Source of the DNA: Muribaculaceae bacterium Zag1
GTDB taxonomy: Bacteria; Bacteroidota; Bacteroidia; Bacteroidales; Muribaculaceae
Length of the DNA stretch: 56,105 bases
Direction: 5' to 3'
Assembly: GCA_002633115.1 (NCBI GenBank)
Contig: NWBJ01000062.1
Span: forward strand, 68,387 to 124,491
Part shown: positions 18,397 through 41,347 of the stretch, piece by piece
Numbering within the stretch: the stretch's first letter is position 1
Layout: the number at the start of each line of letters is the position of its first letter
Notes under the pieces: model-generated
Database searches by the model: none
Seen by the model: the letters and a program-made list of their open reading frames with translations, nothing else
Told to the model about the DNA's origin: nothing
Translations under genes and position numbers: made by a program

Positions 18397-18407
18397 GGTT
18401 TGACTTG
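18397..18407 (-). promoter_or_regulatory. CAAGTCAAACC leader element
   Basis: This is one of eleven exact copies of the 11-mer in the prophage. It lies 15 bases before the ATG at 18381 and directly after the hairpin at 18415-18439. Confidence 0.75.
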
Positions 18408-18414
18408 TAAAGAG

Positions 18415-18439
18415 GGGGTGGAGGGAGAGGCTCCACCCC
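18415..18439 (-). terminator. Intergenic hairpin, possible weak terminator/attenuator
   Basis: An 8-bp stem (GGGGTGGA / TCCACCCC, 9-base loop) is followed leftward by CCTCTTTAC and then the leader motif. The T tract is poor, so it may only attenuate or mark a processing site. Confidence 0.4.
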
Positions 18440-18445
18440 TTCAGA

Positions 18446-18619
18446 CTAATCATCTTCTACGTCTTTGCTGAAGATGTAGTGGAACTTGGCGTCGCCGCCT
18501 ACGTAGTACACGATGGTCTCTTCGCGGACCCATCCGAGCTTGCCCTTTTCCGTCAGTTCGTCCGCAGTCATCGGCTCGTCGGCAGTCTGGGCATCGTACT
18601 CCTTGTGAGTTGTGGCCAT
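18446..18619 (-). CDS. Small phage hypothetical protein (57 residues)
   Basis: An ATG at 18619 opens 57 codons to a TAG. The protein is hydrophilic and acidic (MATTHKEYDAQTADEPMTAD), with a beta-like end (ETIVYYVGGDAKFHYIFS). It is collinear with its neighbours and fills an otherwise empty gap. The family is unknown. Confidence 0.6.
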   Translation of the reverse strand: MATTHKEYDAQTADEPMTADELTEKGKLGWVREETIVYYVGGDAKFHYIFSKDVEDD

Positions 18620-18680
18620 TGCTTAAAATGGTTTAGAGGTTATAGTATGCTGAGTCCCGGCCACTCGTCAGCCGGGATAA

Positions 18681-19046
18681 TCATTCGTTGAAATTTGAGC
18701 GGATGTTGTAGGGGCTGAACTTGGCGAACTGCACCCACTTGGTGCCAGGCTTCAGCTCAAAGTATTTGGGGCTGATCGGGAGGGTGCTGAACACGTCGTT
18801 GCCGCTCTTGTTCTTGCCTCGGTAGTAGGCGAGGCTCATATGCGTGAGCATGCCCGCAGCGGTGAAGTTGAGCAGAACCACTGGCTCGCCCATTCGCAGA
18901 GGTTTGTGGGCCGGCTCAGGCACTGATGCCTCATCGAGAGCCTTTTCTTGTTCCTGGCGCTCCTGCCATTGCTGGTAGTTTGAGCGTTCGCGCTGGCGCT
19001 CAATGGCCATGTTCTTTTTCATTTCTTTCAAGATGGGAGAATCCAT
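18681..19046 (-). CDS. Early phage hypothetical protein
   Basis: The product is 121 residues from ATG 19046 (MDSPILKEMKKNMAIERQRE). It has a Gln/Glu/Arg-rich helical N-terminus followed by a compact beta-rich C-terminal domain (PVVLLNFTAAGMLTHMSLAY). The longer reading from 19076 is possible. The family is unknown. Confidence 0.65.
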   Translation of the reverse strand: MDSPILKEMKKNMAIERQRERSNYQQWQERQEQEKALDEASVPEPAHKPLRMGEPVVLLNFTAAGMLTHMSLAYYRGKNKSGNDVFSTLPISPKYFELKPGTKWVQFAKFSPYNIRSNFNE

Positions 19047-19163
19047 GATTATTTCATTTGATTCGTTTGACTGCAAAATAAACTCTGTTCTTCACGACAG
19101 CGGACGATTCGCCATCGCATCTTTCATGGCGATGCTCTTTCGCTGAAAGAGGTTTCATATCAT

Positions 19164-19304
19164 TCATTCTTTTTCATTGGTTCCAACGATTTCGGGATTG
19201 TTCTTGATGATTTGCTTCATCGACCAGTGGAGCACTTTCACGCCGACATACATGGCGACAATTGAAAAGACGATTACCACCAAGATTGCTACTGCTGTTC
19301 TCAT
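19164..19304 (-). CDS. Small single-pass membrane protein
   Basis: The product is 46 residues from ATG 19304. MRTAVAILVVIVFSIVAMYV is a clear single membrane span; a short charged C-terminal tail follows (KNNPEIVGTNEKE). Longer in-frame readings run through the preceding gene and are rejected. Such early-region membrane peptides often affect host entry or lysis, but no role can be shown here. Confidence 0.6.
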   Translation of the reverse strand: MRTAVAILVVIVFSIVAMYVGVKVLHWSMKQIIKNNPEIVGTNEKE

Positions 19305-19323
19305 TGCTATGGTATTTGAGGGA

Positions 19324-19656
19324 TTATGCCGCCTTAGCGGCTTCAAGGAGTTTCTTGGCATCCTCGATGGCAACGTCTCGATCCAGACCGCAGAAGCTGC
19401 GCTGAGCCTCGAAGCTGGTGCCATAGGGAGTGTCGCACCAAAGGTAGCCGTAGGATACGTGGAGGCCGACAACGCGGCTTCCACAGCTGAGAGTGGTCTC
19501 GCTGATGGCGAGCTTCTTGTTGTTGGGGTTGAAGCTGTCAGCCACGGCCTTGGGGTTGGCGCTCACGGCTTTCATGACATCTCTGAGGATGTCTTGCATC
19601 TTGTACAGCTTTTGCTGATTCTCTTCTTGCTCTTTGAAATATTCAGTCAGGGACAT
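19324..19656 (-). CDS. Early phage hypothetical protein
   Basis: The product is 110 residues: a helical, Gln/Glu-rich N-terminus (MSLTEYFKEQEENQQKLYKM) and a small beta domain with GSRVVGLHVSYGYLWCDTPY. The leader motif is 17 bases upstream of the ATG, supporting this start. The family is unknown. Confidence 0.7.
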   Translation of the reverse strand: MSLTEYFKEQEENQQKLYKMQDILRDVMKAVSANPKAVADSFNPNNKKLAISETTLSCGSRVVGLHVSYGYLWCDTPYGTSFEAQRSFCGLDRDVAIEDAKKLLEAAKAA

Positions 19657-19673
19657 AGCGTTGGGTTTTTATT

Positions 19674-19684
19674 GGTTTGACTTG
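19674..19684 (-). promoter_or_regulatory. CAAGTCAAACC leader element
   Basis: This is an exact copy of the 11-mer, 17 bases before the ATG at 19656. Confidence 0.75.
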
Positions 19685-19693
19685 GGGTTGTTT

Positions 19694-20083
19694 TCAGAGG
19701 TAGTATTCTGCAAGTTCTCTTTCCAGCTCTTCGACTTGGCTTTCAGTGAGGGGGAACTCGTTGTCCTCCTCATCGTAAAAATTGACCGAGTTTACGCAAA
19801 GGCTCTCAATGCCCTCAATCTCATCGACTATTCTCTCTATCTCGTCATAGTCGCATCCGACATATCCATATTGCTCGATTGAGCAGCTCGGAGTGAAGCA
19901 GATGTCCACAGACCAGTCGTATCCGCCAAGGTGGGTGTCGAGGGCATCCTCGATGGAATAGTAGTCCTGGGCGCTTGCCTCTTCCAATCCGATGAGGTCG
20001 GAGCAGCCATTGATGATTTTGGAGATCGGGTACTCGTTGATTATCTCTTTTGCAAGGGCTTTGATGTCAATTGTAGGTTCCAT
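19694..20083 (-). CDS. Very acidic early protein
   Basis: The product is 129 residues with Asp and Glu far outnumbering Lys and Arg, and an all-acidic C-terminus (FYDEEDNEFPLTESQVEELE). It is the first gene after early promoter P1 and carries the leader motif 15 bases before its ATG. Strongly acidic, small, first-expressed phage proteins are sometimes DNA mimics such as anti-restriction proteins. That is only an inference here, since I see no ArdA or Ocr signature. Confidence 0.7.
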   Translation of the reverse strand: MEPTIDIKALAKEIINEYPISKIINGCSDLIGLEEASAQDYYSIEDALDTHLGGYDWSVDICFTPSCSIEQYGYVGCDYDEIERIVDEIEGIESLCVNSVNFYDEEDNEFPLTESQVEELERELAEYYL

Positions 20084-20098
20084 ATTTGGGGTTTAAGA

Positions 20099-20109
20099 GG
20101 TTTGACTTG
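20099..20109 (-). promoter_or_regulatory. CAAGTCAAACC leader element
   Basis: This is an exact copy of the 11-mer, 15 bases before the ATG at 20083. It lies in the predicted 5' leader about 12 bases after the P1 start point, so it is transcribed. Confidence 0.8.
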
Positions 20110-20127
20110 TTGTTTAATTATTATATG

Positions 20128-20188
20128 CAAAGATAGTCATTATTAACGAGTTACACAAATTTACAGTCCACCTTTTAACACCTTAACG
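20128..20188 (-). promoter_or_regulatory. Early promoter P1 with upstream box
   Basis: Leftward promoter: -33 TTTG (20156-20159), 20-base spacer, -7 TATCTTTG (20128-20135). Upstream, CGTTAAGGTG...GGTGG occupies 20168-20188 and starts 33 bases from the -7 box. The same box at the same distance is found in P2, P3 and P4. Confidence 0.8.
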
Positions 20189-20203
20189 TTTGTAAACGTT
20201 GGC

Positions 20204-20737
20204 TCAGGGAACAAGGCTGTCGAACAGTCCGGGAGCCTTTGGAGTGAGGGCCTCGTATTCCTCACGAAAGAACTCTTCCTTGGTCCGCCCCATCTTCTTG
20301 CCCTTTCGGGTATGGACGTCGAACGTGTACCGGGGAATTGCCACTGGGTACTTTCTCACATCCTCCAGCCATGCCTCAACGTCAACGGCTCTGCGGTCGT
20401 AGACGAAGTTCTGAAGATGGTCGGCATCGCGGCTCTTGCGACATTCGCAGAGGATAATCACGGCCTTGCTGACGAAGATTCTGCCCTTAGGCTCAGACTT
20501 TCCCTTGTTCACCAATTCATGCCCCTGCCACAAAGCCTCGATCTCCTTTGTGATGATGCCGAAGCAATCCTCAGCCGATATGGTGAAAAGGCGCTTCCAC
20601 ACGTAATCGCGGTAGCCGCTCTCCCACAGTTCAAGGGCGAAATAGCCGGCCACCGCAGCATCGGCTCGCCTTATAGCCTTCTGCATGGCTGATGATACCT
20701 CAAAGAAATCATATCCGTTGCTAGTGCGTATTATCAT
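20204..20737 (-). CDS. RarA/MgsA C-terminal-domain-like protein
   Basis: The product is 177 residues from ATG 20737 (MIIRTSNGYDFFEVSS). Residues ~14-60 (SAMQKAIRRADAAVAGYFAL, then RLFTISAEDCFG) match the helical C-terminal region of RarA/MgsA-type AAA+ replication-fork proteins, the part that forms tetramers and binds SSB. The ATPase domain is absent. A role at the phage fork or in hijacking host RarA/SSB is inferred. It is transcribed from P4. Confidence 0.6.
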   Translation of the reverse strand: MIIRTSNGYDFFEVSSAMQKAIRRADAAVAGYFALELWESGYRDYVWKRLFTISAEDCFGIITKEIEALWQGHELVNKGKSEPKGRIFVSKAVIILCECRKSRDADHLQNFVYDRRAVDVEAWLEDVRKYPVAIPRYTFDVHTRKGKKMGRTKEEFFREEYEALTPKAPGLFDSLVP

Positions 20738-20761
20738 AACTTTCAAATATTTAATTTTCTG

Positions 20762-20822
20762 CAAGTTAGCCATTTTTGTCAAGATGTGAAAACAGATTGG
20801 GCGCCATTTTTACACCTTAACT
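20762..20822 (-). promoter_or_regulatory. Early promoter P4 (variant) with upstream box
   Basis: A -7-like TAACTTG (20762-20768, one T short of the consensus) is preceded, again exactly 33 bases away, by AGTTAAGGTGTAAAAATGGC (20801-20822 region). The box and spacing are those of P1-P3. It serves the RarA-C-like gene. Confidence 0.6.
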
Positions 20823-20834
20823 TTTACTGACGTT

Positions 20835-21587
20835 TTAGAACTTGTATTTGCAAGTTATGTTATACTCAACCAACTGCCTGGTCTCGTCCTTGCCGTTGCG
20901 TGTCTTGCCTTTCATCACGATGGAATCGCCGAAATGCTTCTTGATGAAAAGTATCGACCGCTTCTCCTCCTCCTGGTTGCGGAAAGCGGAAAGCCCTCCG
21001 GCATTGACGAATGTGGACTTCTGGGCGAAGTTGTATCTGAGGTCGGTGAGGATTCTGCGCTCCTTGTACTTGACGTAGCAAGAAATCCAAAAATCCTCCT
21101 TGAGCCTAAGCTCCTCGTTCCACCAAACGTTCTTGTTGTACCTCACCCCATACGAGCAGCCAGTGATCATCTTTGAGAGCGAGAGGTATTCCTGCTCCTC
21201 ATACATGACAGGAGTGGTGCGGGCGGTGAATCCGAACACGTGCACATCGAGGAGGCAAGCGATGTCGTGGAGATTCTCGATGATGTAGCGCACCCTTTCG
21301 GGGTCTTTCACCACCGTGCCCTCGCCTTTCTCAGCCACAAGGTTCTTCACAGCGTGAACGTCATCGTCAATCATGAACAGCTCGCCGAAGTGCTTGGCCA
21401 TCCAATTGCGCTTTGGTATCAAGCCGATTATGTCATTGGGATGGGTCACAATCTCGCAGTCGGGATTGCACAGCTTGTACTGCTCCTCCTGGCTCTTGGG
21501 AACGCAGATTATCGGGTCGGTCACTATGCGCTTGGCATAGACGCGGTCGTGCCTCTTATGGCTTGGTATGACTATCTTCAAGGGCAT
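20835..21587 (-). CDS. TAGT-like glycosyltransferase
   Basis: The product is 250 residues with a GT-A-like layout. It has a first strand KIVIPSHKRHDRV, then PKRNWMAKH and a metal-binding LFMIDDDVHAV (Asp74-76). Further on are FGFTARTTP and NEELRLKEDFWISC, the acceptor-side acidic motif. The pattern agrees with the TET/JBP-associated glycosyltransferases that decorate modified bases in phage DNA. No TET/JBP oxygenase is in the window. The gene overlaps the ParB-fold gene upstream by 32 bases, so the pair should act together. Confidence 0.65.
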   Translation of the reverse strand: MPLKIVIPSHKRHDRVYAKRIVTDPIICVPKSQEEQYKLCNPDCEIVTHPNDIIGLIPKRNWMAKHFGELFMIDDDVHAVKNLVAEKGEGTVVKDPERVRYIIENLHDIACLLDVHVFGFTARTTPVMYEEQEYLSLSKMITGCSYGVRYNKNVWWNEELRLKEDFWISCYVKYKERRILTDLRYNFAQKSTFVNAGGLSAFRNQEEEKRSILFIKKHFGDSIVMKGKTRNGKDETRQLVEYNITCKYKF

Positions 21588-25313: not shown

Positions 25314-25928
25314 TTATGCCGACACCTCAAAGGTTATTCCCAATGCCCTTGCGCCCTCTTCGCGCCCGGGGCTACGCTTGGTGTCGGGAGTGATGTAGTA
25401 CAGGTTATGGTTGCCGGCCGATTCACGGTAGCCGTTTTTCCTCAGCCAATAGCGGTATTGTATTTTGCGCTTGCTCTGCTTTACTACGCGGAGCCTCGTC
25501 TTCTGATCGAAGCCGAACAGCACTCGCCGCCTTTCCGATTTCAGCAGAGCCAGACGGTTTTCGCTCATGCGCTTGCAGTATTCCCGGCGCTCATCCTCGG
25601 TGAAGCGGTGCCATTGGGTGTTGGTGTGGCCGTGCTTGAACTGGTAGAGGATGCCTTTCTTGAACCCATCAGGCACCACTCCCTTTTTGGGGAGGGTGCC
25701 TCGCATCCTCTTGATGGGAACGAGGCTCTGCTGGGTGCGGCAGAGTATTTGCTTCAAGCCGCTCTCCGAACGCTTCAAGCCTAAGCTCTTGGCCAGTCTG
25801 ATAACAGTGCGAAACGAGACGCCCAAATGATGGGCGATCTCGTTGTTGCTTGTGTTGTCGTAATGGGCAAAGAGCCACGCCCTCTGCTCATCCGAGAGGA
25901 CGATTTTGTTGGGCGCGTAGCGGCTCAT
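25314..25928 (-). CDS. Helix-turn-helix phage protein
   Basis: The product is 204 residues. The N-terminal SDEQRAWLFAHYDNTSNNEI plus AHHLGVSFRTVIRLAKSLGL is a clear HTH. The rest is very basic (RRRVLFGFDQKTRLRVVKQS) and may bind nucleic acid. The ATG overlaps the big ParB stop (ATGA). It could be a regulator, for example of the early promoters, or a homing-type DNA-binding protein; no HNH catalytic residues are visible. Confidence 0.6.
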   Translation of the reverse strand: MSRYAPNKIVLSDEQRAWLFAHYDNTSNNEIAHHLGVSFRTVIRLAKSLGLKRSESGLKQILCRTQQSLVPIKRMRGTLPKKGVVPDGFKKGILYQFKHGHTNTQWHRFTEDERREYCKRMSENRLALLKSERRRVLFGFDQKTRLRVVKQSKRKIQYRYWLRKNGYRESAGNHNLYYITPDTKRSPGREEGARALGITFEVSA

Positions 25929-27649
25929 TGCTCTGTGTAGTGGGTTGTGTCCTTGAACTCAAGAGGCTTACCATCGGTGCCGTAGCCAAGGTCTTTCAGC
26001 TTGTCGGCAATCTTCGACTGCTTTGCCTCCAATGCCTCAATGGAGGATTTCTCAACCTCTGCCACCTTGTCGGGAAGCCATTCGCGGAGGAGCGACTTGC
26101 TAACCATCGCTGCCAGGGAGTCAACATAGTTGGTGCTTCCCATTTGGTTGCGGAGGAACTCACGCGCCATTGTGCGGAATGCCTTCTTGTCGCCAATGGC
26201 ATTGTTTGCCATGGCCACAATGTCGCGTGGCACAAGGCTCCATTGTGTAGAGGGGAGATTGAGAGCCTCGTGGACTTTGGCTTTCATATCCTTGCCCGAG
26301 CCGTCGAGGAAGAAGCAGTAAAGAGCCATCTTCTCGGCATCGGTGAGAGGGCTGGGGTCCGTGGGGATTTCCATCTCTGCCGCCATCTTGGCCATTTCCT
26401 TTGCCAGGGAGTCACGGGCAATCTCTTGGTTGCGGATATACTTGGCAGTCAGTTTTGAAACCTCTGTGGGCGCGACTGTGCCGGAGGCGGCGTTTCCCGA
26501 TTCCTCGGAGGTTTTGATGTAGTAGTAGCAGATGCGAGGATTGAGGGAGTGAGAACCCCAAAAGACATCCACGCAACGGTAAATCTTGCCATCCTTATGC
26601 ATCTGAGGGATACGCTCGTCATCGGCAGAGTAGTAGCACGGAGTGCCGAAGATGTCCGGCTTCACCACCTCATAGCCAGCCTCGTGGAAAGCGTCAACCG
26701 CCCAGTCGTGGAAACGCTGATCATCAGTGCTCCAATAGCGGCCAGTGTCGATGATGACTGTCTTGCCGTATTCAAGAGCCTCGCCCACCTTGACGATGTC
26801 GCCTCGGCGCTTCAGGAAGTCAAGGAGGAACGCAAGCATCTTGCCCTCGAACTTGTCACGGCTGGTGCACTTGCCCGCATCCTGGGTTTTCATTTCCCAA
26901 AAGAGGCAGTTGGCGTTGGCGGTGTTGAGGTGGCATGCAGAGCACTTGCAGCCACAGCCTCCCTCAAAATCCTCGTCCTCCTCATTGTCGGTGCTGTACC
27001 AAGGAGAGCGCTCAATCATCATGAACAGGGTTTCAACGTATCGCTGAGCCATATCCTTGCCGATGCTCTCATAGTTGCCGTAGGCTCCGTAGAACTTCTG
27101 CTGGCCAGCCTCGTCGAGCTTGCAGATAATCAGTCCGGCAGAAATGGCCATCTTGCCCTCCTTGACCAGGAGGAGCAGTTCGGGAATGAGGGAGTTGAGC
27201 TTGATGCGGTCTTGGACGAATCGGATGCTCTTGCCGAAGCGATTGGCGATTTCCTCAGCCGTTGAGCCTTTCTCGGCGAGTTGGCCGAAAGCGTAGGCTT
27301 CCTCGATGGGGTCAACGTCTTTGCGCTGAAGATTCTCGGTGATCATCGCATCGAATGCCTGGTCATCGTTCATGTCGCGCACGATGCAGGCGATTGTCTC
27401 GGCTCCGTTGAGCAGCGAGGCGCGGTAGCGGCGCTCTCCGCAAACGACCTCGTACTCTACTGCGGTGTCTGCCATGACTTCGGGGGCGCAGACACCGCTT
27501 TGGGTGATTGGGCGCACAGTGATAGGCTGAAGCAGTCCTTGGTTGGCAATGTTCTGAGCCAGCTCTTTCAGAGCCTCCTCATCGAATGTTTTGCGAGGAT
27601 TCAGAGGTGAGGGTTTCACCTTGTCGATTGGAATGTTTTGTATTTCCAT
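25925..27649 (-). CDS. Large ParB/RepB-family protein with Cys cluster
   Basis: The product is 574 residues. A ParB N-domain (NPRK at 17-20, VCGERRYRASLL at 69-80) is followed by the KorB-like HTH (TAEEIANRFGKSIRFVQDRI). A cysteine-rich insert GCGCKCSACHLN...C...KC near 235-265 probably binds metal, then come a long alpha/beta region and a helical end. It is larger than chromosomal ParB (~300) and no ParA accompanies it, so partition is unlikely to be its only job. It is the first gene under P2, with the leader motif 15 bases before the ATG. Confidence 0.8.
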   Translation of the reverse strand: MEIQNIPIDKVKPSPLNPRKTFDEEALKELAQNIANQGLLQPITVRPITQSGVCAPEVMADTAVEYEVVCGERRYRASLLNGAETIACIVRDMNDDQAFDAMITENLQRKDVDPIEEAYAFGQLAEKGSTAEEIANRFGKSIRFVQDRIKLNSLIPELLLLVKEGKMAISAGLIICKLDEAGQQKFYGAYGNYESIGKDMAQRYVETLFMMIERSPWYSTDNEEDEDFEGGCGCKCSACHLNTANANCLFWEMKTQDAGKCTSRDKFEGKMLAFLLDFLKRRGDIVKVGEALEYGKTVIIDTGRYWSTDDQRFHDWAVDAFHEAGYEVVKPDIFGTPCYYSADDERIPQMHKDGKIYRCVDVFWGSHSLNPRICYYYIKTSEESGNAASGTVAPTEVSKLTAKYIRNQEIARDSLAKEMAKMAAEMEIPTDPSPLTDAEKMALYCFFLDGSGKDMKAKVHEALNLPSTQWSLVPRDIVAMANNAIGDKKAFRTMAREFLRNQMGSTNYVDSLAAMVSKSLLREWLPDKVAEVEKSSIEALEAKQSKIADKLKDLGYGTDGKPLEFKDTTHYTEQ

Positions 27650-27664: not shown

Positions 27665-27675
27665 GGTTTGACTTG
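27665..27675 (-). promoter_or_regulatory. CAAGTCAAACC leader element
   Basis: This is an exact copy of the 11-mer, 15 bases before the ParB ATG at 27649, within the P2 leader. Confidence 0.8.
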
Positions 27676-28672: not shown

Positions 28673-29447
28673 TAGCGGTCTGTTGGTTTGACTTGATTTC
28701 AATTTCTTTCTTGGTGATCCAATAGGCGCACTCGCCCTCCCAATTGCTGAGGATTAGCCGCCCCTTTGAATTTCGCCACTCTTGCTTGTTGAAGTAATCG
28801 TAGAAAGCCTGAGCCTCCAATTCCCAAAGGTCGCCGATTCGGCCGGGGGCCCCGCAGACAACGAACTCTTTTTTGACTTGCTCGATAGTGGGGATAAGCG
28901 GAGGGTCTTTAGGCTTTGGCTTTTTCTTAGGCTGCCTTAACTGCTTTTCAGAAAACAACTGCTGTTGGCCCAAGGGGGAAGGGGGTCCGTCTTTTGTCTT
29001 TATGTCTTTATCTATAATAGGTGGAATTTCGTTTATTGTGGGGGTTATTGTCGGAACAATTGTCGATATTTCCGACAATTGTTTTTGTTTATTGTCGGAA
29101 TTTTCTGCAATATTTCCGACAATTCCACTTTTTTGCTTTTCACCCATTACGATTTCTTCACCAGTGATTTTGGCCTTGGTTAACTGATAGTATCGCTTGC
29201 CTCTTCCCTTGCCTTGATTGAACTTGATCAGCCCTCGCTGCGCCAGACGATTCTTAGCAACGTCTATCGTATCCCTTGACATATTGAGTTCGTATTGGAT
29301 TGTGGCGGTGCTCAGCAGGAATGGGTTAATCCAACGTCCCGAATTGCATTTGTGTATCAAGAAGAGATACAGTAGCGAATCCGACTGGGGAAATGGATCA
29401 ACGCTGTTGAGTTCCCAAAAATCGCTTACTAATTCAAAATAATTCAT
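28572..29447 (-). CDS. Replication initiator-like protein (winged helix)
   Basis: The product is 291 residues from ATG 29447 (MNYFELVSDFWELN). Residues 1-110 form a winged-helix/HTH (LSTATIQYELNMSRDTIDVA, KNRLAQRGLIKF, wing GKGRGKRYYQL). A low-complexity linker holds the iterons in its DNA, and the C-terminal DnaD-like/helical domain is AFYDYFNKQEW...LSNWEGECAYWI. This domain order and the helicase loader overlapping at its 3' end match phage initiator/loader pairs. Confidence 0.75.
   Translation of the reverse strand: MNYFELVSDFWELNSVDPFPQSDSLLYLFLIHKCNSGRWINPFLLSTATIQYELNMSRDTIDVAKNRLAQRGLIKFNQGKGRGKRYYQLTKAKITGEEIVMGEKQKSGIVGNIAENSDNKQKQLSEISTIVPTITPTINEIPPIIDKDIKTKDGPPSPLGQQQLFSEKQLRQPKKKPKPKDPPLIPTIEQVKKEFVVCGAPGRIGDLWELEAQAFYDYFNKQEWRNSKGRLILSNWEGECAYWITKKEIEIKSNQQTANGTKAKARKEDVYSDRRGVDADSKADKEWDVPL
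28685..28695 (-). promoter_or_regulatory. CAAGTCAAACC leader element inside a coding region
   Basis: This is an exact copy of the 11-mer, 12 bases before the helicase loader ATG at 28672. It lies within the initiator gene, so it is maintained even where it constrains codons. Confidence 0.7.
29047..29123 (-). repeat. Iterons in initiator gene, candidate replication origin
   Basis: The 10-mer ATTGTCGGAA occurs four times exactly in 77 bases: forward at 29047-29056 and 29091-29100, inverted (TTCCGACAAT) at 29070-29079 and 29114-29123. There is also one imperfect copy near 29059-29068. The region is AT-rich and encodes the low-complexity linker of the initiator. As in lambda (ori inside O), the initiator may bind sites within its own gene. 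Confidence 0.7.
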
Positions 29448-32383: not shown

Positions 32384-32800
32384 TCATCTGTTTTTATAGT
32401 ATTCCACAAATTCCTGGTAATAGCGGTCGGCAGGGAGCGGAAGCGTGATGCCCCACTCCGTTGCGACCTCCGATTGTATCTTGTTGAGATAATTGGCGAA
32501 CTGCTCGGTGTTGAGATAAGCAGTGCTACCAGGCATCCTAACCTCTCTGCCTTTAACGATGGTGGTGTACGATAGGAACTTGCCCTTGAAATATTCGTGC
32601 CAAGCGTCCTTTGGTGAGCCTGATTCAAGCTCCAACGCTCCAAGCCACAGCCAATAGAGCCGATTCTGATTCTCGGTGCGAGGCGTCACCTTTCGCTTGA
32701 TGGAGAGGGTATAGGTGCCGTTTCGGAGTTGGGAGCATAGGAACTCAAATGATTTCTCCATGCTCACCACTCCGTCTTTCTTGGTCAGTATCGTCTCCAT
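32384..32800 (-). CDS. NinB-like recombination mediator
   Basis: The product is 138 residues. RTENQNRLYWLWLGALELES and DAWHEYFKGKFL, followed by the TAYLNTEQFANYLNKIQSEV helix, match the NinB/Orf family that binds single strands and helps recombinases load. ATG at 32800 overlaps the SSB stop (TGATG). It lies with SSB, ERF and an exonuclease, as in many phage recombination modules. Confidence 0.85.
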   Translation of the reverse strand: METILTKKDGVVSMEKSFEFLCSQLRNGTYTLSIKRKVTPRTENQNRLYWLWLGALELESGSPKDAWHEYFKGKFLSYTTIVKGREVRMPGSTAYLNTEQFANYLNKIQSEVATEWGITLPLPADRYYQEFVEYYKNR

Positions 32801-33477
32801 CAGAATGGCAGTCCGTCAGGGGTGTTGGTAGGGTAAACAGGCTGAGGCTGCGCTTGCGGCTGAGGCTGCATTTGCGGCTGATTCTGAGGGGGCTGTGGCA
32901 CTTGCCCGTAGCCAGCAGGAGGGGCAACGTTGGGGTTGCCCTGGGGTTGGTAGGCTGGCTGCTGATAGGCTTGCTGAGGCTGTCCGTAGGCGGGCATTGC
33001 CGCAGGCGGAGGCGATTGGTAGCCGCCGTTGGGCTGAGGCGCGGTCGGTGGGTAGCCGCCTTGGGGATAGCCGGGGGCCGGCTGATAGGCATTGGGCTGC
33101 TGATAGCCGGGCGCGGCAACAGGAGGAGCGGCTTGCTGATTTTGGGGATTGCCTCCGCAGAGGTCGAAAGTGTCGGCAAACACCTCGGTGACGTAGCGCT
33201 TGTTGCCGCTCTTGTCATCATAGGAGCGAGTGCGGATCTTGCCCTCGATGTACATCTTGGTGCCCTTGCGCACATAGTTTTGGACCACTGTGGCGAGCTT
33301 GCCCCACACTACGATGTTGTGCCATTCGGTTCGCTCCGGCACTTGGGTTCCGTCTTGCTTGGTGTAGCCTTTCTCAGTGGTGGCGAGGGTGAAGTTGGCG
33401 ACCTTGCTGCCGCTCACGTCTCTTATCTCGGGGTCTTTGCCCACGTTGCCGAGAAGTATGGCTTTGTTTACGCTCAT
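32800..33477 (-). CDS. ssb: Single-stranded DNA-binding protein
   Basis: The product is 225 residues. The OB-fold (1-110) is canonical: MSVNKAILLGNVGKDPEIR, then FTLATTEKGY, EWHNIVVWGKLA and YVRKGTKMYIEGKIRTR. The tail (~115-220) is a long Gln/Pro/Gly/Tyr-rich disordered linker ending DGLPF, the partner-binding tip. The leader motif is 17 bases before the ATG. Confidence 0.97.
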   Translation of the reverse strand: MSVNKAILLGNVGKDPEIRDVSGSKVANFTLATTEKGYTKQDGTQVPERTEWHNIVVWGKLATVVQNYVRKGTKMYIEGKIRTRSYDDKSGNKRYVTEVFADTFDLCGGNPQNQQAAPPVAAPGYQQPNAYQPAPGYPQGGYPPTAPQPNGGYQSPPPAAMPAYGQPQQAYQQPAYQPQGNPNVAPPAGYGQVPQPPQNQPQMQPQPQAQPQPVYPTNTPDGLPF

Positions 33478-33489: not shown

Positions 33490-34545
33490 TTATTGGTTTG
33501 ACTTGTCTTCCTTTAGGGTAATGGTGAAAGAGCCAGCCTTTGGCTTTTGCGCAGAATATTGCTTATAGAGTTCGGGATGGTCTTTCTTGAATTTGGTGGT
33601 GTCGAATGACGTTGTGGTGCTGTCGGCTCCGATGGTGGCCTTGAACAGGCCGCTGTCCCAACTCTTGATGCCAGCGTTCTGCATCGCTGATTTGAGCTCG
33701 CTCTTCAATGCCTTCAGCTTTTCCTCAGCCTCCTTGGCTTGCTTCACCATGTCGTAGATGGCTTGCACCACGTTGGGCTTGACAATCATCGACTGCTCTT
33801 GCACCGCAACATCTTGGGTCGGCGCAGTGGCCGATGCCTCCGAGGGCATGAACACAATATGGCCGTTGACCTCCGCCCATTCTGTGGCAAGCAGTTTGGC
33901 AACCTCATCGTCGGGCTTGCGTTCGATAATCCAAAAGCGGCTGTCGGCTTTTCGGAGCCAGTTGCAAGCCAACCCCTCGACTTTAAGCGAGGGGTTTTGT
34001 CGCTCAAAGAGGCATGCGTACACGCTCAGCTGCCAAGAAAGGTACTCTTGCAAGCCAGCCTCACCGCCTGGATAGTAAGAGAGGTTGTTGGTCTTGGTGT
34101 CGATGAGCCAAATGCCTTGGGTGTCATTCTTGATCCAGACGTTGTCGATGTTTGAGGCATACATCTTCTCATCGCTGACAGTGTATTCGTTGGCAAGCGG
34201 AACAAAGCCGACTTGGTTGCGGATGTAGGATTCCAACTCCTGGCCCACCTCCCAATTCAGGTCGGTAAATGGATTCTCTCTGAAACGCTCGCTCTTCGGA
34301 TGCAGAGTAACCTTGATGCCGAGATTGTCCCAAGCCTCGATGGCATGGTGGACTGATGTGCCGTACTCGCCAGCGCGAGGAACGCAGAAGTTCTTGACAT
34401 AGTCTGATGCATCGGGATAGACACCCAAGCCAAGCACTTGGTGGATAAGGTTGGTGATGCCGCTCAGCTTCTTTTCACCAAGGTGATACCCGTGGGGCTC
34501 TTCTGTGAACACCACGGGCGATTTGTAGAGGTCAGGCTTATTCAT
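33490..34545 (-). CDS. PD-(D/E)XK exonuclease (recombination module)
   Basis: The product is 351 residues from ATG 34545 (MNKPDLYKSPVVFTEE), overlapping the ERF stop by four bases. RecB-like nuclease motifs are visible: GTSVHHAIE (His67), Glu120, SNIDNVW (Asp134) and WLIDTKTNN (Asp149, Lys151), plus a QLSVYAC motif. The C-terminal ~100 residues are helical and charged. With ERF it makes an exonuclease/annealase pair. Confidence 0.85.
   Translation of the reverse strand: MNKPDLYKSPVVFTEEPHGYHLGEKKLSGITNLIHQVLGLGVYPDASDYVKNFCVPRAGEYGTSVHHAIEAWDNLGIKVTLHPKSERFRENPFTDLNWEVGQELESYIRNQVGFVPLANEYTVSDEKMYASNIDNVWIKNDTQGIWLIDTKTNNLSYYPGGEAGLQEYLSWQLSVYACLFERQNPSLKVEGLACNWLRKADSRFWIIERKPDDEVAKLLATEWAEVNGHIVFMPSEASATAPTQDVAVQEQSMIVKPNVVQAIYDMVKQAKEAEEKLKALKSELKSAMQNAGIKSWDSGLFKATIGADSTTTSFDTTKFKKDHPELYKQYSAQKPKAGSFTITLKEDKSNQ
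33495..33505 (-). promoter_or_regulatory. CAAGTCAAACC leader element
   Basis: This is an exact copy of the 11-mer, 17 bases before the SSB ATG at 33477. Confidence 0.8.
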
Positions 34546-35114
34546 TGGGGGAACGCTTGGGCCATTTGGACGCAAGCCTCATAGAACTCGCCGCCCTGTT
34601 GGCAGATTTGGGGATAGGATTGGCTGTACTTGGCCCACACTTTCTGATACTCCTCACGCGACTTCACCGCATATACCTCCTTGACTGCGGTCTCGGTGAT
34701 AGATTTCAGATCGACACCCTTGTCATCCTTGCCTTGGGTATTGGTGGCATCGCTGTCTTTGGTGTCATCGATGGCGAATAGGCCGTTGAGTGCGTACTTG
34801 CGGGCATAGGAGGAAGCCGCTCCGGTGACTTGGCTCGAATCCATGCCTTTCTTGCTCTCCTCCTCACGTGCGAAAGCGGTGGTGGTCTCGCACTCGCCAG
34901 CCTCATTTTTGAGGATTGTGGTTGCCTTGATGTAGATGCGGTTGCCGCAAGGCACAACATCGTCGGTGATGGTGAGGGTGCACTTGGTCTCAGCCAGCAG
35001 GGGCTTCACTGCGGCGAGGATGTCCTCGCAACTGCGGTACCTGTACTTCCCGAATTGGTTGAACTGCCCTTTGGGCGCGTTCAGCTTCTCTTGGATTGTT
35101 GCTAATTCTTTCAT
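34542..35114 (-). CDS. ERF-family single-strand annealing protein
   Basis: The product is 190 residues. The ERF signature is clear: FNQFGKYRYRSCEDILAAVK, PLLAETKCTL, then the conserved SQVTGAASSYARKYALNGLF followed by AIDDTKDSDA. It anneals complementary strands after resection. It is the first gene under P3, with the leader motif 19 bases before the ATG. Confidence 0.92.
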   Translation of the reverse strand: MKELATIQEKLNAPKGQFNQFGKYRYRSCEDILAAVKPLLAETKCTLTITDDVVPCGNRIYIKATTILKNEAGECETTTAFAREEESKKGMDSSQVTGAASSYARKYALNGLFAIDDTKDSDATNTQGKDDKGVDLKSITETAVKEVYAVKSREEYQKVWAKYSQSYPQICQQGGEFYEACVQMAQAFPQ

Positions 35115-35133: not shown

Positions 35134-35144
35134 GGTTTGACTTG
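35134..35144 (-). promoter_or_regulatory. CAAGTCAAACC leader element
   Basis: This is an exact copy of the 11-mer, 19 bases before the ERF ATG at 35114, in the P3 leader. Confidence 0.8.
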
Positions 35145-35226: not shown

Positions 35227-35460
35227 TCAATTATTGTCAATTCGAGCCGCCTCGATTGTCTCTTTCAGAGCATCGAGCACCTTGTCGTAATCCTCAGCGT
35301 GGAGGAATATGGTGGAGCGCTTCTCGCTGTTCTTGGCCATCTCTGTCATAGTGACGTAGCGCTGGCCGTTCTTGTCGGAGCGGACATCGAAATAATAGAT
35401 GCGGCTCCCGGCGCTGACCGACTTGGTGCTTATCGGCCTCTGCGTTTGCTTCTTATCCAT
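35227..35460 (-). CDS. DUF3276 / PUR-alpha-like nucleic-acid-binding protein
   Basis: The product is 77 residues from ATG 35460 (MDKKQTQRPISTKSVSAGSR). SRIYYFDVRSDKNGQRYVTM then TEMAKNS and RSTIFLHAEDYDKVLDAL are the PUR-like repeat pattern of DUF3276, a Bacteroidetes family that binds single-stranded nucleic acid. A longer reading from 35586 lacks support. Confidence 0.85.
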   Translation of the reverse strand: MDKKQTQRPISTKSVSAGSRIYYFDVRSDKNGQRYVTMTEMAKNSEKRSTIFLHAEDYDKVLDALKETIEAARIDNN

Positions 35461-35809: not shown

Positions 35810-35820
35810 GGTTTGACTTG
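35810..35820 (-). promoter_or_regulatory. CAAGTCAAACC leader element
   Basis: This is an exact copy of the 11-mer, 18 bases before the ATG of the small membrane protein at 35791. Confidence 0.8.
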
Positions 35821-35823
35821 GGG

Positions 35824-36934: not shown

Positions 36935-37011
36935 TGGTGCGGCGATGGGACTCGAACCCACGCTCTCGAAGCCTCTCTTGGCAACGGCTCTGCCATCTGA
37001 GCTACGCCGCA
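36935..37011 (-). tRNA. tRNA-like gene with defective anticodon arm
   Basis: Reading leftward: a 7-bp acceptor stem (TGCGGCG / CGCCGCA), a D arm GCTC-AGATGGCA-GAGC, a T arm GTGGG-TTCGAGT-CCCAT and an encoded CCA give a normal 74-base body. The anticodon arm does not form a 5-bp stem with a 7-base loop and has no U33. The best pairing is GTTGCC / GGCTTC with two U-U mismatches and loop AAGAGA. No amino acid can be assigned. It may be a decayed tRNA or a tRNA mimic. Confidence 0.65.
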
Positions 37012-37486
37012 CTGTAAAGTTGCATTATGACTTGTAAGATAATGTGTGTGTTTCCGCTATCCATCCGCAAGTGGTGAATGGGAGAATAAGGCCGCTTGCG
37101 GATGGCGAACGTTTAAGGACTTATGTTGTTAATGTATTGTTGGCGATAATGAAAGTTTATCGGGTTGGTCACTCTGCGAGGCACCTATGCCCCTCGCACT
37201 GGCATGCGTCTCTTTTGGTCGCCAAGGGGATTCGACGCTTCTCTGTTCCCCCGCCTTACGGGCTGTTTCAATGATTTTCTGCATCGGCGCGGTTAAGCCT
37301 CCCGATGTTACTCTCTCATCTTTTACCGCTCGGCTCATCCATCCTTTCGGATGGGAATTTTCCAACAATGTCAATGTTCTTGGAATTGGAGCCCCGGGTC
37401 GGGTTGAGCGACCTTGCTGCCCTTGCGGACACGTGCCGAGGCTCTTAGGGGTTGGTTGGTTTGACTTGCAGGCCAGGGCCAGGCTC
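37012..37486 (-). ncRNA. Candidate long structured non-coding RNA
   Basis: There are 475 bases without a credible gene. Stems include CCATCCGCAAG / CTTGCGGATGG (37061-37071, 37095-37105), GCGAGG / CCTCGC (about 37177-37198), CATCGG / CCGATG (about 37282-37307), CCATCC-TTTC-GGATGG (about 37338-37353) and GGTCG / CGACC (about 37397-37415). A leader motif stands at its upstream edge (37458-37468) and the tRNA-like gene and a terminator at its downstream edge. Long phage RNAs such as GOLLD and ROOL also sit next to tRNAs; this one is not recognised as either. Confidence 0.5.
37458..37468 (-). promoter_or_regulatory. CAAGTCAAACC leader element before non-coding region
   Basis: This is an exact copy of the 11-mer. 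No ATG lies within 30 bases downstream; the nearest possible start is a GTG at 37432 opening a 37-codon frame. It is the only copy not tied to a credible protein start. Confidence 0.7.
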
Positions 37487-37729
37487 TTACTTGCAGATTC
37501 CGCCGAGGATAAGTGCAAAGGCCTTGATTTGCTCTTTCAGCTCGTCGCGCTCGGTGTAGGCTTCATGCCAGCTGTCGCGGTAGAAGTCGGTTTGCTTGTT
37601 GGCTGCTTCGAGCTTGGTTTTCAGATTCTCGATTTCGCCGCTGAGGTCGGCGATTTGGCTGTCGCGCTGAGCAACCTCGTTGGTGAGGCTCTCAATCTGC
37701 TCTTGCAGAGCTTTGATCTGTTCTTCCAT
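37487..37729 (-). CDS. Small coiled-coil early protein
   Basis: The product is 80 residues from ATG 37729 (MEEQIKALQEQIESLTNEVA), an almost uninterrupted heptad coiled coil to ~residue 70 with a short hydrophobic end (FALILGGICK). It is the second gene of the leftward lysis/lytic transcript. The family is unknown. Confidence 0.65.
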   Translation of the reverse strand: MEEQIKALQEQIESLTNEVAQRDSQIADLSGEIENLKTKLEAANKQTDFYRDSWHEAYTERDELKEQIKAFALILGGICK

Positions 37730-38302: not shown

Positions 38303-38357
38303 TTTTACTCGTTTTAGCATTATTTAAGAGTTAAACCCTAAAAACCGATACGAAACA

Positions 38358-38708: not shown

Positions 38709-38711
38709 ACA

Positions 38712-39320
38712 ATGAACCGAATCTTCTTCACCTTGATCGCCCTATCCCTATGGGAAATCCAATCTTCGGCACAGACCATGGAGCCGCAAGACACCACATT
38801 CTCTGTGGAGCGAAGAGTGTACTGTGAATTGCTCGGCATGGAGAGCGGATTATTCAGCACTAAGGTTAAAATCCAAGTTGATTTCGGCCAGTCGCGCTCG
38901 CTCACAAGCGATGAGCGATTGGTAGATGAGAACGGCAAGCCGATAAAGTTCAACTCAATGGTTGACGGCTTGAACTATATGGGTCAGTTCGGGTGGAAGT
39001 TCGCATAGGCATACGTTGTGACCAACGGCAATCAGAACGTGTACCACTGGCTCCTCTACAAGGACATTCTCTCCGAGGAGGAAATATTCACCGGATTCCA
39101 GACCAAGCATCAGTTCAAGGATGGCCAGACAGCCGACTGGACTCTCATCAGCTGCACCATCCGCTATCTAAAAAAGCGCAAGTACAAAACTTCCTGGGAA
39201 CTCGTGAAAGAGGAACACAAAAAGAACATCCCTCGTGACGAGCTCAACACCATCGGCAACGAGTGGAAAGCCAAGAGCGATGACAACTACGACTATGATG
39301 TTGAGATAATAAAGGACTAA
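38712..39320 (+). pseudogene. Secreted-protein gene interrupted by an in-frame amber codon
   Basis: The two parts are in one frame. 38712-39008 encodes a signal peptide (MNRIFFTLIALSLWEIQSSA) and ...LNYMGQFGWKFA. TAG at 39006-39008 follows, then AYVVTNGNQNVYHWLLYKDI and on to 39320. The joined sequence (FA-[Q?]-AYVVTNGNQNVYHW) reads like a common Bacteroidales exported protein, in which Gln (CAG) would be one base from TAG. Other phage genes here end in TAG, so recoding is unlikely and a nonsense mutation is the simplest view. Confidence 0.75.
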
Positions 39321-39410
39321 TCATCTTTTATCATCAACCTCAGTGGCCAAGCCGTGGACACCTCTCACGGCATCTACATCCAAGCCGGCCAAAAGAAAAT
39401 CGCAAAGTAA
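39321..39410 (+). pseudogene. Remnant of a C-terminal sorting-domain-like sequence
   Basis: Directly after the stop and in the same frame is IINLSGQAVDTSHGIYIQAG followed by QKKIAK and TAA. That matches the end of Bacteroidetes type A (T9SS-like) C-terminal sorting signals (NLSGQ...GIYI..G.K). There is no start of its own, so it is a fragment of a lost gene or a detached tail of the neighbouring pseudogene. Confidence 0.55.
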
Positions 39411-39490
39411 AAAGGAGGTTTATTCCAACAAAAGTAACGTTGATGCAATAATATTTCGCAACAATCAGCCCGATATAAACACTTATTTAG

Positions 39491-39498
39491 TAATTTTG
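39491..39498 (+). promoter_or_regulatory. -7 box of RexAB-like operon
   Basis: TAATTTTG fits TAnnTTTG and lies 19 bases before the ATG at 39518. No TTTG is present at the usual -33 distance, so it may be weak or need activation. The surrounding 100 bases are AT-rich. Confidence 0.5.
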
Positions 39499-39517
39499 CA
39501 ATAACAATGGCACAAGT

Positions 39518-40462
39518 ATGAGCAAGAAAAAAGACATAACATTGCGTGCCTTCAACATTATGGTAGAGAACACAAATGTTACCTCTCCTACTGTTGAAAT
39601 CCTCCCTATGCTTAATAAGGTATTGGAGGATAGGAATACCACTTTAGCCAGATGTATGAGATTGAACGAACAAGACGAAGATCGAGATGTCTTGAGTTGG
39701 TTCAACCTTGAGAACAAAACCTATATGTTTGGTTTAATGCTTCGCATTATGCCAAATGTCAATGGTGCATTGATTGACAATGAAATGCTAAATCAAGACT
39801 CCATTAAGTTGGAGGACTTATCTACAAAAGACAATACACTTCATCGTCAAAAATGGCATTTCTATGTTGCCATTAATAACACCCATTTGGTTACTAATCT
39901 CCCTGGGACATTACAAATCTCGTTCTTCCAAACTTATCTGAACTGGCTGTTGGGTGAAATCCGCAATGAACAATATTTCGCCATTTCACCTGTGGTAAAA
40001 GAGCCAAAGGAATGTCCGCTATCAGAAATTAAAAGCATCGAGTTCAACTCGGGCAATCCCAAAGCTATAGAGACCAACCCACTTCCTATGAAAAGTCAAG
40101 TTGTCTCTATGATAAAAGCCCTGACCGGAGATATGCTTAAACATATTCTCGACAGTTCTGACGAATTTGACGATATTCAAAAGTCAGAATTAATCTCAGC
40201 AAGCCTGCTCTTGAAATTCAATAGAAAGCCAAAAAGCATGGATAAGGCCACCTATCAAAAATTAATGGGTGCCGTGGCTAAACATCTTTCCGATGATAAT
40301 GGTTTGATAATACGCGGAAAGAATGGTCAAAAGCTGACTGGCAAAGAGATCAAGGAAACCAAGAACGTTAGAATCGATTTGACAGAATCTGGCAATATCT
40401 CAGAGCCACAACTCCAACAAGAAATGGAAATATATCTTAAAGAACTTTCTACAAAAGAATGA
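39518..40462 (+). CDS. RexA-like exclusion protein
   Basis: The product is 314 residues, soluble (MSKKKDITLRAFNIMVENTN). Order of segments and several phrases parallel lambda RexA: an early KTYMFG strand, WHFYVAINNTHLV, then YFAISPVVKEPKECPLSEIK, a helix SQVVSMIKALTGDML, LLLKFNRKPKSMDKATYQKL, GLIIRGKNGQKLT and a short helical end. The next gene is a four-span membrane protein overlapping it by four bases, as rexA-rexB. Both lie downstream of the repressor on the lysogenic strand. Similarity is remote and judged by eye. Confidence 0.55.
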   Translation: MSKKKDITLRAFNIMVENTNVTSPTVEILPMLNKVLEDRNTTLARCMRLNEQDEDRDVLSWFNLENKTYMFGLMLRIMPNVNGALIDNEMLNQDSIKLEDLSTKDNTLHRQKWHFYVAINNTHLVTNLPGTLQISFFQTYLNWLLGEIRNEQYFAISPVVKEPKECPLSEIKSIEFNSGNPKAIETNPLPMKSQVVSMIKALTGDMLKHILDSSDEFDDIQKSELISASLLLKFNRKPKSMDKATYQKLMGAVAKHLSDDNGLIIRGKNGQKLTGKEIKETKNVRIDLTESGNISEPQLQQEMEIYLKELSTKE

Positions 40463-40914
40463 AAATCGTTTACAGAATAATATTAGCCGTTCTGGTATCC
40501 ATAGGGTTAAGCTCTATGGGTATCAATGGCTCTGTTGACATTCTGCAAACCTTATTCACAGTACTTGGAATCATATTTTCCATTGCAATGTGCCTTTTGG
40601 TGTCATTCAACTTATCACGCATTCTCAACCAGAATATTTATAAAAGACTAAGAAAATCCTTAGCCCATACAAGAGGTTATATTTTGGCAGATTTTACCAT
40701 CTGTGCAGGCGTGTTCGTAATCGCTTCTCTTGATGGCTTAAAAGATATGTCTATTCATTTGTTTTGGAAATTATCACTTTCCATTCCACTGACCGGAATC
40801 TGCATTATAGTGTCCTCTATATTATATGAGGCATACAACTTCAATAAAATTCGTCGCCTCCAAGAAAATATTGAAGAGCAGATTATAAAAGAGGACACCG
40901 CATCACTTAAATAA
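40459..40914 (+). CDS. RexB-like four-span membrane protein
   Basis: The product is 151 residues with four hydrophobic spans at about 5-22, 28-50, 73-91 and 97-118 (IILAVLVSIGLSSMGI; TLFTVLGIIFSIAMCLLVSF; GYILADFTICAGVFVIASL; LSLSIPLTGICIIVSSIL) and a charged C-terminal tail. Lambda RexB is 144 residues with four spans and forms a depolarising channel. ATG overlaps the RexA-like stop (ATGA). The function is inferred from topology, size and position. Confidence 0.55.
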   Translation: MKIVYRIILAVLVSIGLSSMGINGSVDILQTLFTVLGIIFSIAMCLLVSFNLSRILNQNIYKRLRKSLAHTRGYILADFTICAGVFVIASLDGLKDMSIHLFWKLSLSIPLTGICIIVSSILYEAYNFNKIRRLQENIEEQIIKEDTASLK

Positions 40915-40929
40915 TCAGTTCTTTCAAAC

Positions 40930-40940
40930 CAAGTCAAACC
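40930..40940 (+). promoter_or_regulatory. CAAGTCAAACC leader element, rightward
   Basis: This is an exact copy of the 11-mer on the opposite strand, 15 bases before the ATG at 40956. It shows that the motif follows gene direction rather than replication direction. Confidence 0.8.
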
Positions 40941-40955
40941 AATAAACCATAATCA

Positions 40956-41300
40956 ATGGAATATCAACTTGACCTAATGCCGATCGACACCCACAAGCAC
41001 ATCTTTGTGGGTGAGGAAAATGGTGCCATGGCTCGCAAGGCTCTCGCCCTCGATGATAAGGATGCCGACCCTCACACCTACGCCATCGCTCTGCCCGATG
41101 AAGTCACCGCTTTCAACACCTCATTCTACCTTGGCCTATTCTATACCAGCATCGAGAGATTAGGATTGAAGCCATTCGTGGCCAAATACAGATTATCGCT
41201 CTCAGCCATCGAATCAGATGAACTAAGAGAGATAATCAAGGAGAATGTCGAAAGATGCCGCCTCGATGCCATGATGGAATACAGTCTGAGACACGGCTGA
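40956..41300 (+). CDS. STAS-like (DUF4325) protein
   Basis: The product is 114 residues. The central YAIALPDEVTAFNTSFYLGL then FYTSIERLGLKPFVAKY matches the STAS-like DUF4325 pattern (small alpha/beta domain with the S-F-G-L helix start). Such domains bind partners, for example histidine kinases. It carries the early leader motif although it lies in the lysogenic arm. It is the last complete phage gene before the junction. Confidence 0.75.
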   Translation: MEYQLDLMPIDTHKHIFVGEENGAMARKALALDDKDADPHTYAIALPDEVTAFNTSFYLGLFYTSIERLGLKPFVAKYRLSLSAIESDELREIIKENVERCRLDAMMEYSLRHG

Positions 41301-41319
41301 GGCTCCACAATCCTCAGCC
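41295..41319 (+). terminator. Hairpin at end of lysogeny operon
   Basis: A perfect 8-bp stem (GGCTGAGG / CCTCAGCC, 9-base loop) begins in the last codons of the STAS-like gene. No T tract follows (GACACATTG), so termination would be weak. Confidence 0.45.
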
Positions 41320-41336
41320 GACACATTGAAAATTTG

Positions 41337-41347
41337 CAAGTCAAACC
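41337..41347 (+). promoter_or_regulatory. CAAGTCAAACC leader element at prophage edge
   Basis: This is an exact copy of the 11-mer, 18 bases before an ATG (41366) that is followed at once by CCC TAA. A normal leader and start codon thus head a gene that is missing. Confidence 0.75.

Follow-up and report, generated by a model that had tools for sequence, protein, structure and literature searches.

A predicted small RNA and its putative seed sites ahead of dispersed genes in a Muribaculaceae prophage

Phages are known to encode small RNAs that pair with phage or host mRNAs, among them VpdS of VP882, PreS and OOP of lambda, sar of P22, and 24B_1; VpdS and PreS require Hfq, sar, OOP and aQ are classed as antisense RNAs, and the c4 antisense repressor RNAs of P1 and P7 control phage immunity and gene expression (PMC12197685, in part). 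The same review, in the parts drawn on here, deals with phage small RNAs in the control of replication and lysogeny, several of them working with Hfq. In Bacteroides, which has no obvious homolog of Hfq or ProQ, the RNA GibS represses two targets through their initiation regions, and one target is found at lower levels when GibS is absent (PMC7366714, in part). Short sites repeated within a phage genome have also been described. The Start-Associated Sequences of cluster K mycobacteriophages, an asymmetric repeat present in 11-19 copies, typically in one orientation, ahead of start codons in the non-structural half, contain AGGAG, typically lie 3-7 base pairs (bp) from the start and have a partner that is given as unknown, while the L5 stoperators are 13-bp sites with a role in transcription regulation (PMC3203893, in part). 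Here we describe an 11-base element, CAAGTCAAACC, that is repeated in a prophage of Muribaculaceae bacterium Zag1 and lies largely in a 56,105-nucleotide stretch of contig NWBJ01000062.1 (hereafter C62; positions 68,387 to 124,491), which we call the window. We conclude, with a probability of roughly 87%, that a trans-acting small RNA from the same prophage uses this element as its seed target. A literature search, with most subscription papers outside its reach, turned up no description of the small RNA or of the motif.

Sites and a candidate small-RNA gene in the prophage

The window had been predicted to hold eleven exact copies of the element, and exactly 11 are present, every one at the predicted coordinate and on the predicted strand. 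Their rarity by chance was also borne out: the original prediction expected 0.03 copies, and 100 dinucleotide-preserving shuffles of the window gave a mean of 0.08 and a maximum of 2. Searching the full prophage, as had been proposed, added two copies beyond the left edge of the window, at -609 and -16966 (negative numbers count leftwards from its start). The whole host assembly holds 16 copies, 13 of them in this one prophage of ~60 kilobases (kb) on C62; the remaining three, on contigs C38, C59 and C136, have no ATG at 12-19 nucleotides (nt) in the sequence examined and look like chance occurrences.

Ten of the 13 prophage copies lie 12-19 nt ahead of an ATG that opens an open reading frame (ORF) of at least 30 codons, and in these ten ORF targets the motif falls within the interval from -30 to -13, counted from the ATG. 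Five of the targets handle DNA or RNA (ParB-like, Erf, SSB, DnaC-like and WYL_2) and five have no assigned function. On the minus strand of the window, the sites are found at 18397..18407, 15 nt before the ATG of a 160-amino-acid gene (17899-18381); at 19674..19684, 17 nt before that of a 110-amino-acid gene (19324-19656); and at 20099..20109, just downstream of a TAnnTTTG promoter-like box and 15 nt before the ATG of a 129-amino-acid gene (19694-20083). Such a box also precedes the sites at 27665..27675, 15 nt before the ATG of the ParB-like gene (25925-27649; phrog_18726, with ParB_N and HTH_ParB domains), and at 35134..35144, 19 nt before that of the gene for the Erf-like annealing protein (34542-35114). 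Two sites overlap the 3' end of the respective upstream gene: 28685..28695 lies 12 nt before the ATG (28672) of the gene for the DnaC-like helicase loader, and 33495..33505, in the end of an exonuclease gene, lies 17 nt before the ATG of the SSB gene (32800-33477). The site at 35810..35820 stands 18 nt before the ATG (35791) of a 38-amino-acid ORF, that at 40930..40940, on the plus strand, 15 nt before the ATG of a 114-amino-acid gene (40956-41300), and the tenth, that of the WYL_2 gene, is outside the window at C62:67777-67787 (window -609..-599, minus strand).

The original prediction had placed ten window copies at this distance from an ATG and one inside a coding region. Nine of the eleven do open an ORF of at least 30 codons; the tenth, at 41337..41347 (plus strand, beside the proposed attR), stands 19 nt before the two-codon ORF ATG CCC TAA. 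The supposed coding copy, at 37458..37468 (minus strand), is outside any called gene, as the gene at 37487-37729 stops before it, and it heads a structured-looking, ORF-poor stretch ending in a tRNA-like gene. The last of the 13 prophage copies, at window -16966..-16956, is antisense to the candidate small-RNA gene.

Sites that are preceded by a GGGGAACCACCC hairpin, when read on the opposite strand, make up this gene, which in the present prophage occupies C62:51380-51466 (window -17006..-16920, plus strand, outside the window) and adjoins the end of the integrase gene. It consists, in order, of a TAnnTTTG box, which we take to be the Bacteroidota -7 promoter consensus, ~35 nt, the sequence ATTGGTTTGACTT in most cases, a GC hairpin and a T-run; here the promoter box overlaps the integrase stop codon. 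The predicted RNA of ~75-85 nt would comprise a 5' hairpin, a mostly unpaired linker with the exact complement of the motif, and a terminator hairpin followed by a U-run, and it appears to have its own promoter and intrinsic terminator. Among the roles first offered for the motif, that of a small-RNA target is the one upheld, with the partner gene found in the same prophage but outside the window; the others were not selected. An Rfam scan of five loci gave two sub-threshold matches, neither at the small RNA, and no family gathering score was reached. At E ≤ 1, blastn found no match to the small RNA of the relative G009 in 50,697 phage records and none to the small-RNA locus of this prophage in 72,556 plasmid records.

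RNA structure, related phages and co-evolution

Six small RNAs folded singly gave z-scores of -3.5 to -5.6. Across 30 aligned homologues, in an alignment fitted to the model so that pair counts lean towards it, standard pairs fill 92.4% of pair cells and double-sided changes occur in 86 cells, as against 28.8 for shuffles and 8-21 for pairings shifted out of register; none of 500 shuffles was as good, on all five measures. RNAalifold, given the same alignment, proposed 15 pairs of its own, 10 of them with double-sided changes. The secondary structure of the small RNA is conserved. The seed lies between the two hairpins with a mean unpaired probability of 0.72, and the RNA is thus predicted to offer a single-stranded seed complementary to mRNAs encoded elsewhere.

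For comparison we used 397 related (family) genomes (G labels; G000 is this genome) and stretches from IMG/VR (L labels), with near-identical repeats removed before sites were counted. The ParB-like gene is present in 30 of the 397 genomes, and we inspected 20 neighborhoods. Looking at the same gene in relatives had been suggested at the outset, and the motif core is retained there: AAGTCAAAC is upstream of the ParB-like start in 17 of the 20 neighborhoods and is missing in two distant members, G360 and G050, while the match in G143b begins inside the gene. In 38 phage or prophage stretches (1.14 Mb), the 10-mer AAGTCAAACC has 139 non-redundant sites, and 40 shuffled 10-mers together have 59. 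At 111 of the 139 (including one antisense site of the small-RNA gene of G417), an ORF of 30 or more codons begins with an ATG 10-20 nt further on, as against 6 of the 59. Of the 28 exceptions, 6 are antisense sites of small-RNA genes, 11 head tRNA-like or structured RNA, 4 stand 1-3 nt from an ATG and 2 stand at 21-22 nt; a further 2 belong to one locus that G005 and G089 share, and the last 3 are C62 41337, G005 28315 and one in G419, whose ParB-like gene apparently begins with GTG. The distance from site to ATG has a mean of 16.2 nt and a standard deviation of 2.2 nt (n=137; range searched, 9-23 nt). Linked by blastp, the target proteins of the sample form 40 families, the largest being the ParB-like (30 proteins, 26 stretches), the Erf-like annealing (20), an unknown 112-amino-acid protein (11) and the WYL_2 family (10).

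A scan of IMG/VR with the 16-mer AAGTCAAACCAATWAA, a query that holds no ATG information, matched at least 120 stretches. Among the matches listed, 62 of 111 distinct ones have an ATG-ORF at 10-20 nt, compared with 344 of 4,800 random positions in the same loci, and 3 more of the 111 are small-RNA antisense sites; with the distance widened to 6-29 nt, the listed matches give 69 of 111 for the 120 stretches and 54 of 79 for 80 of them. Many of the other 16-mer matches, in unrelated contigs, look by eye like chance. An IMG/VR scan with the Erf protein was too broad (best 80 of at least 598 relatives), and one with ParB gave 2 distant loci. By eye, L187, L195, L214 and other IMG/VR loci carry an inverted repeat (e.g., GTAAATGAGACACATTTAC) between promoter and target site, possibly a repressor operator.

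Co-evolution was assessed with targets whose ATG-ORF, of at least 30 codons, starts 9-23 nt from the site, leaving aside the antisense sites of the small-RNA gene itself. With 7 phages, the cognate pairing of RNAs and target sets ranks first among the 5,040 possible assignments, and it does so again when only the 3' flank is scored; a match at the base before the motif is present in 32 of 48 targets, compared with 16.1 expected (36 of 5,040 assignments as good). With 13 phages and 81 targets (3-10 per phage), the mean cognate duplex is -26.8 kcal/mol as against -22.7; none of 200,000 permutations was as good, and likewise none for the 3' flank alone. At the base just ahead of the motif, 51 of these 81 targets match, compared with 27.7 expected (19 of 200,000).

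One clade has altered sites, CAAGTCAAACATTTAATT (...ACATTTAATT), for which a matching RNA, AATTAAATGTTTGACTT, was predicted beforehand. The prediction is exact in G186, whose RNA reads GAATTAAATGTTTGACTTG. The RNA of G367 is the G186 sequence with one extra A, and two sites of G367 carry one extra T; those of G299, G245 and G395 read GAGAGTGAATGTTTGACTTG, which matches the altered seed. Each of the five variant sequences follows a TAnnTTTG box and leads into a hairpin and T-run unlike those of the main clade. At the seed, then, site and RNA have changed in concert, and by this and the permutation result the seed and its targets co-evolve.

The small-RNA gene is found in 7 of the 38 stretches and in L183 and L243, and all nine records have the TAnnTTTG box, the anti-motif, the hairpin and the T-run; box, hairpin and T-run recur at the 5 variant-clade loci. 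Model R1, built from these nine records so that some of its matches follow by construction, gave 26 loci at E<1e-9 in 24 of the 397 family genomes, and a weak match in one further genome. It missed the variant-clade RNA in the stretches examined, which a pattern search found. Of 17 genomes with a ParB-like match at E ≤ 1e-80, 12 have an R1 match and 4 more (G186, G367, G245 and G395) a variant RNA; in the last, G091, neither was found. Small RNA and ParB-like gene are on different contigs in G077, G194, G299, G245 and G367, where they need not belong to a single phage. At 30 of 37 small-RNA loci, a same-strand ORF of more than 60 codons lies upstream, and 27 of these ORFs match the integrase of this prophage (E<1e-80), those of G020, G095 and G162 being the ones that do not; 6 loci have no such upstream ORF and 1 was not located.

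The single orientation of the sites relative to transcription and their many scattered copies would also suit an asymmetric, stoperator-like DNA operator, an 11-bp site bound by a phage repressor or by the ParB-like protein, with the integrase-side copy as one more operator. The prophage does encode an HTH_3 protein as well as the ParB_N and HTH_ParB protein, and the gene for the latter carries a site. However, the integrase-side copy is antisense and sits inside a covarying RNA structure with a promoter box and terminator, the flanks co-evolve as RNA complements, and the spacing to the ATG is retained also at operon-internal sites. A change in protein specificity could alter all sites, yet it need not keep complementarity in a hairpin-flanked RNA. 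We therefore consider an operator very improbable.

We give the least credence of all to a translation-start enhancer that the ribosome or a protein would recognize in the Bacteroidota, which lack Shine-Dalgarno pairing, the small RNA then being a decoy or coincidental. The narrow position before the ATG and the open leaders of the targets agree with such an enhancer, but the site co-varies with the phage's own RNA and also heads non-coding RNA, and its complementarity to 16S RNA is not above that of shuffled motifs. Shine-Dalgarno pairing itself was rejected, since 92-97% of 60 shuffled 11-mers pair at least as well with the 16S genes of three related genomes, none having been found in the genome itself. 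The original prediction holds in that the element is no Shine-Dalgarno sequence and probably works at the RNA level. Outside the prophage, the host has 43 matches of the 9-mer core, while the reversed word has 35 over the entire genome, and enrichment outside the prophage is not clear. We found nothing in favor of an enhancer or antitermination role, the latter not having been tested as such.

Mechanism, further sites and prophage context

In the mechanism we propose, the small RNA would be transcribed from a promoter of its own where the integrase gene ends, and the linker GGUUUGACUUG, between the 5' and terminator hairpins, would pair with CAAGUCAAACC in phage mRNA leaders; pairing could run on into the following flank, which is AAUWAACCC-like in this phage. 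The predicted duplexes with the ten ORF leaders have energies of -25 to -31 kcal/mol, and the start regions of the targets are 0.71 unpaired, compared with 0.52 for 57 other prophage genes. Pairing would most likely block 30S loading and may also speed mRNA decay. Bacteroidia ribosomes fail at Shine-Dalgarno recognition (PMC9976891, in part). Given this, the open target leaders and pairing at the initiation region, repression is the most likely direction of control, and we regard it as probable. In the lysogen, the RNA could silence leaky replication and recombination transcripts, or it could set their timing after induction.

The same small RNA could instead be mainly an activator, a stabilizer or a guide for RNA processing (5'-end protection or RNase III cleavage). 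The site lies near the presumed 5' end in promoter-proximal targets, and 11 sites head tRNA-like or structured RNA, as might be expected of such a role. However, the target leaders are predicted to be open already, so that no inhibitory structure would need melting, and the pairing falls at the initiation region, where GibS represses two targets (PMC7366714, in part). As a group, these roles seem to us unlikely but deserving of attention; taken singly, a main effect on processing or decay is rather doubtful, and activation or stabilization is more doubtful still.

After the gene at 37487-37729, the site at 37458 is followed by the ORF-poor stretch and then by the tRNA-like gene (36936-37011, minus strand), which has an unusual call with a 4-nt anticodon. 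Window 36936-37468 (minus strand) and the heads of similar stretches in G009, G012, G194, G287, G003, G417 and G420 look structured and non-coding, and their tRNA-like elements include some with odd anticodon loops (ARAGORN tRNA-??? calls, 2- or 4-nt anticodons). In several relatives the non-coding stretch opens with GGC-GCTC...GAGTGAGC. ARAGORN places a tRNA-like gene within 2 kb of 6 of the 11 non-ORF sites, as against 5 of 111 controls, and Rfam, in a scan of such loci in which tRNA alone reached its gathering score, adds two (G012 and G287). These results bear out only in part the view that each non-ORF site stands at the head of a tRNA array. As speculation, sites of this type may be sponges or processing sites.

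Computation supports the proposed pairing of small RNA and sites well, through the distribution of the sites, the anatomy of the small-RNA gene, structural covariation, co-evolution of RNA and site, and a prediction that was exact in one divergent genome and partial in four. We infer from this that the RNA is made, pairs in cells and represses its targets. Several observations nevertheless weigh against this interpretation. The promoter and terminator of the small RNA are consensus calls from sequence; the seed is unpaired at 0.8 or more in only 5 of the 30 homologues, and the RNA of L183 folds differently. No chaperone was identified, although no search aimed at chaperone genes was made. The co-evolution signal resides in the average, as the cognate RNA is the best partner for its own target set in 7 of 13 phages (5 of 13 when only the flank is scored), and the phages, being related, do not count as independent. 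In G299, G245 and G395, the flank beside the altered seed fails the predicted AATTAA. No small RNA was found in 9 of 15 IMG/VR records taken at full recorded length, several of which are fragments or short. Three genomes (G045, G092 and G095) of the 12 that have the small RNA and no strong ParB-like match are without any AAGTCAAACC-to-ATG match, and 18 genomes without a small-RNA match have 0-4 such matches. Genome-wide counts thus do not separate carriers from background, and the link holds for phage loci and not for whole-genome counts. Finally, a model of translation block alone leaves two groups among the 139 sites unaccounted for, the 11 that head tRNA-like or structured RNA and the 4 that stand just 1-3 nt from an ATG.

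More tentatively, and with less than even odds, one can picture the integrase-linked small RNA as a second immunity repressor that acts in trans and silences dispersed replication, recombination and regulatory genes. Newly acquired genes would gain sites independently, the site ahead of tRNA-like or structured RNA would be a sponge that lifts repression under strong lytic transcription, and the WYL_2 protein might be a chaperone. The gene for this protein, an Sm-like SH3 beta-barrel (window -609; L009:18975-19358), is itself a small-RNA target, and the protein is a possible RNA chaperone candidate.

The prophage begins outside the window, on the left. A split repeat, GTATCTCCTTTTC and TTTTGTCCCTAC (13-base and 12-base exact parts with one mismatch between them), proposes attL at window -18391 and attR at 41484; the proposed attR core, 26 bp with one mismatch, spans 41484..41509 on the plus strand, and its partner lies at -18391..-18366. 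The prophage is flanked by a penicillin-binding protein gene and by a gene whose translation, judged by eye, resembles superoxide dismutase, and the integrase has Arm-DNA-bind_5 and Phage_int_SAM_5 domains. Outside the window, at -506..-36, the phage encodes a small sigma-70-like factor (Sigma70_r2, Sigma70_r4_2). Downstream of the 38-amino-acid target ORF, window 35227-35460 (minus strand) encodes a putative nucleic-acid-binding protein with a weak DUF3276/PurA-like match.

Comparison with described systems

This conserved Bacteroidota phage RNA appears to have a dispersed regulon in its own genome, with ten ORF targets in the present prophage. If so, a single short RNA could govern many genes of the phage at once, phages of the gut and rumen would gain an RNA layer in their control of lysogeny, and RNA/target co-evolution could be studied in a natural test bed.

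In layout, the nearest look-alike is the Start-Associated Sequence, from which the site differs in sequence, not being GGGATAGGAGCCC-like, and in spacing, with a mean of 16.2 nt to the ATG compared with the typical 3-7 bp; identity with that element was rejected. The L5 stoperators are likewise repeated sites within one phage genome, and at these the repressor binds DNA. Both were the first candidates and were ranked lower once the small RNA had come to light.

Among Bacteroidota RNAs, GibS resembles the RNA proposed here in a single-stranded seed that acts at translation initiation regions and represses, but it is a bacterium's intergenic RNA with few metabolic targets and a long unstructured 5' part (PMC7366714, in part), whereas the present RNA is phage-borne and has a 5' hairpin. 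The c4 RNAs and the CI RNA of P4, which we take to be an antisense repressor RNA like c4, are similar as antisense RNAs that control phage gene expression. Their targets are local, whereas the targets here are many unlinked leaders.

VpdS, PreS, sar, OOP and 24B_1 share with the RNA described here a phage origin and base pairing, which for the latter is proposed from sequence. The hosts of the reviewed phage RNAs are E. coli, Salmonella, Vibrio and Pseudomonas. VpdS and PreS need Hfq, whereas the present RNA belongs to a phylum in which Bacteroides lack an obvious Hfq or ProQ (PMC7366714, in part), and it differs from all five in that a single RNA is matched by about ten predicted seed sites within the genome that encodes it. 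Phage base-pairing RNAs are a kind already known, and what is new here is the presence of many near-identical predicted seed sites in the genome of the phage itself, in such a phylum.

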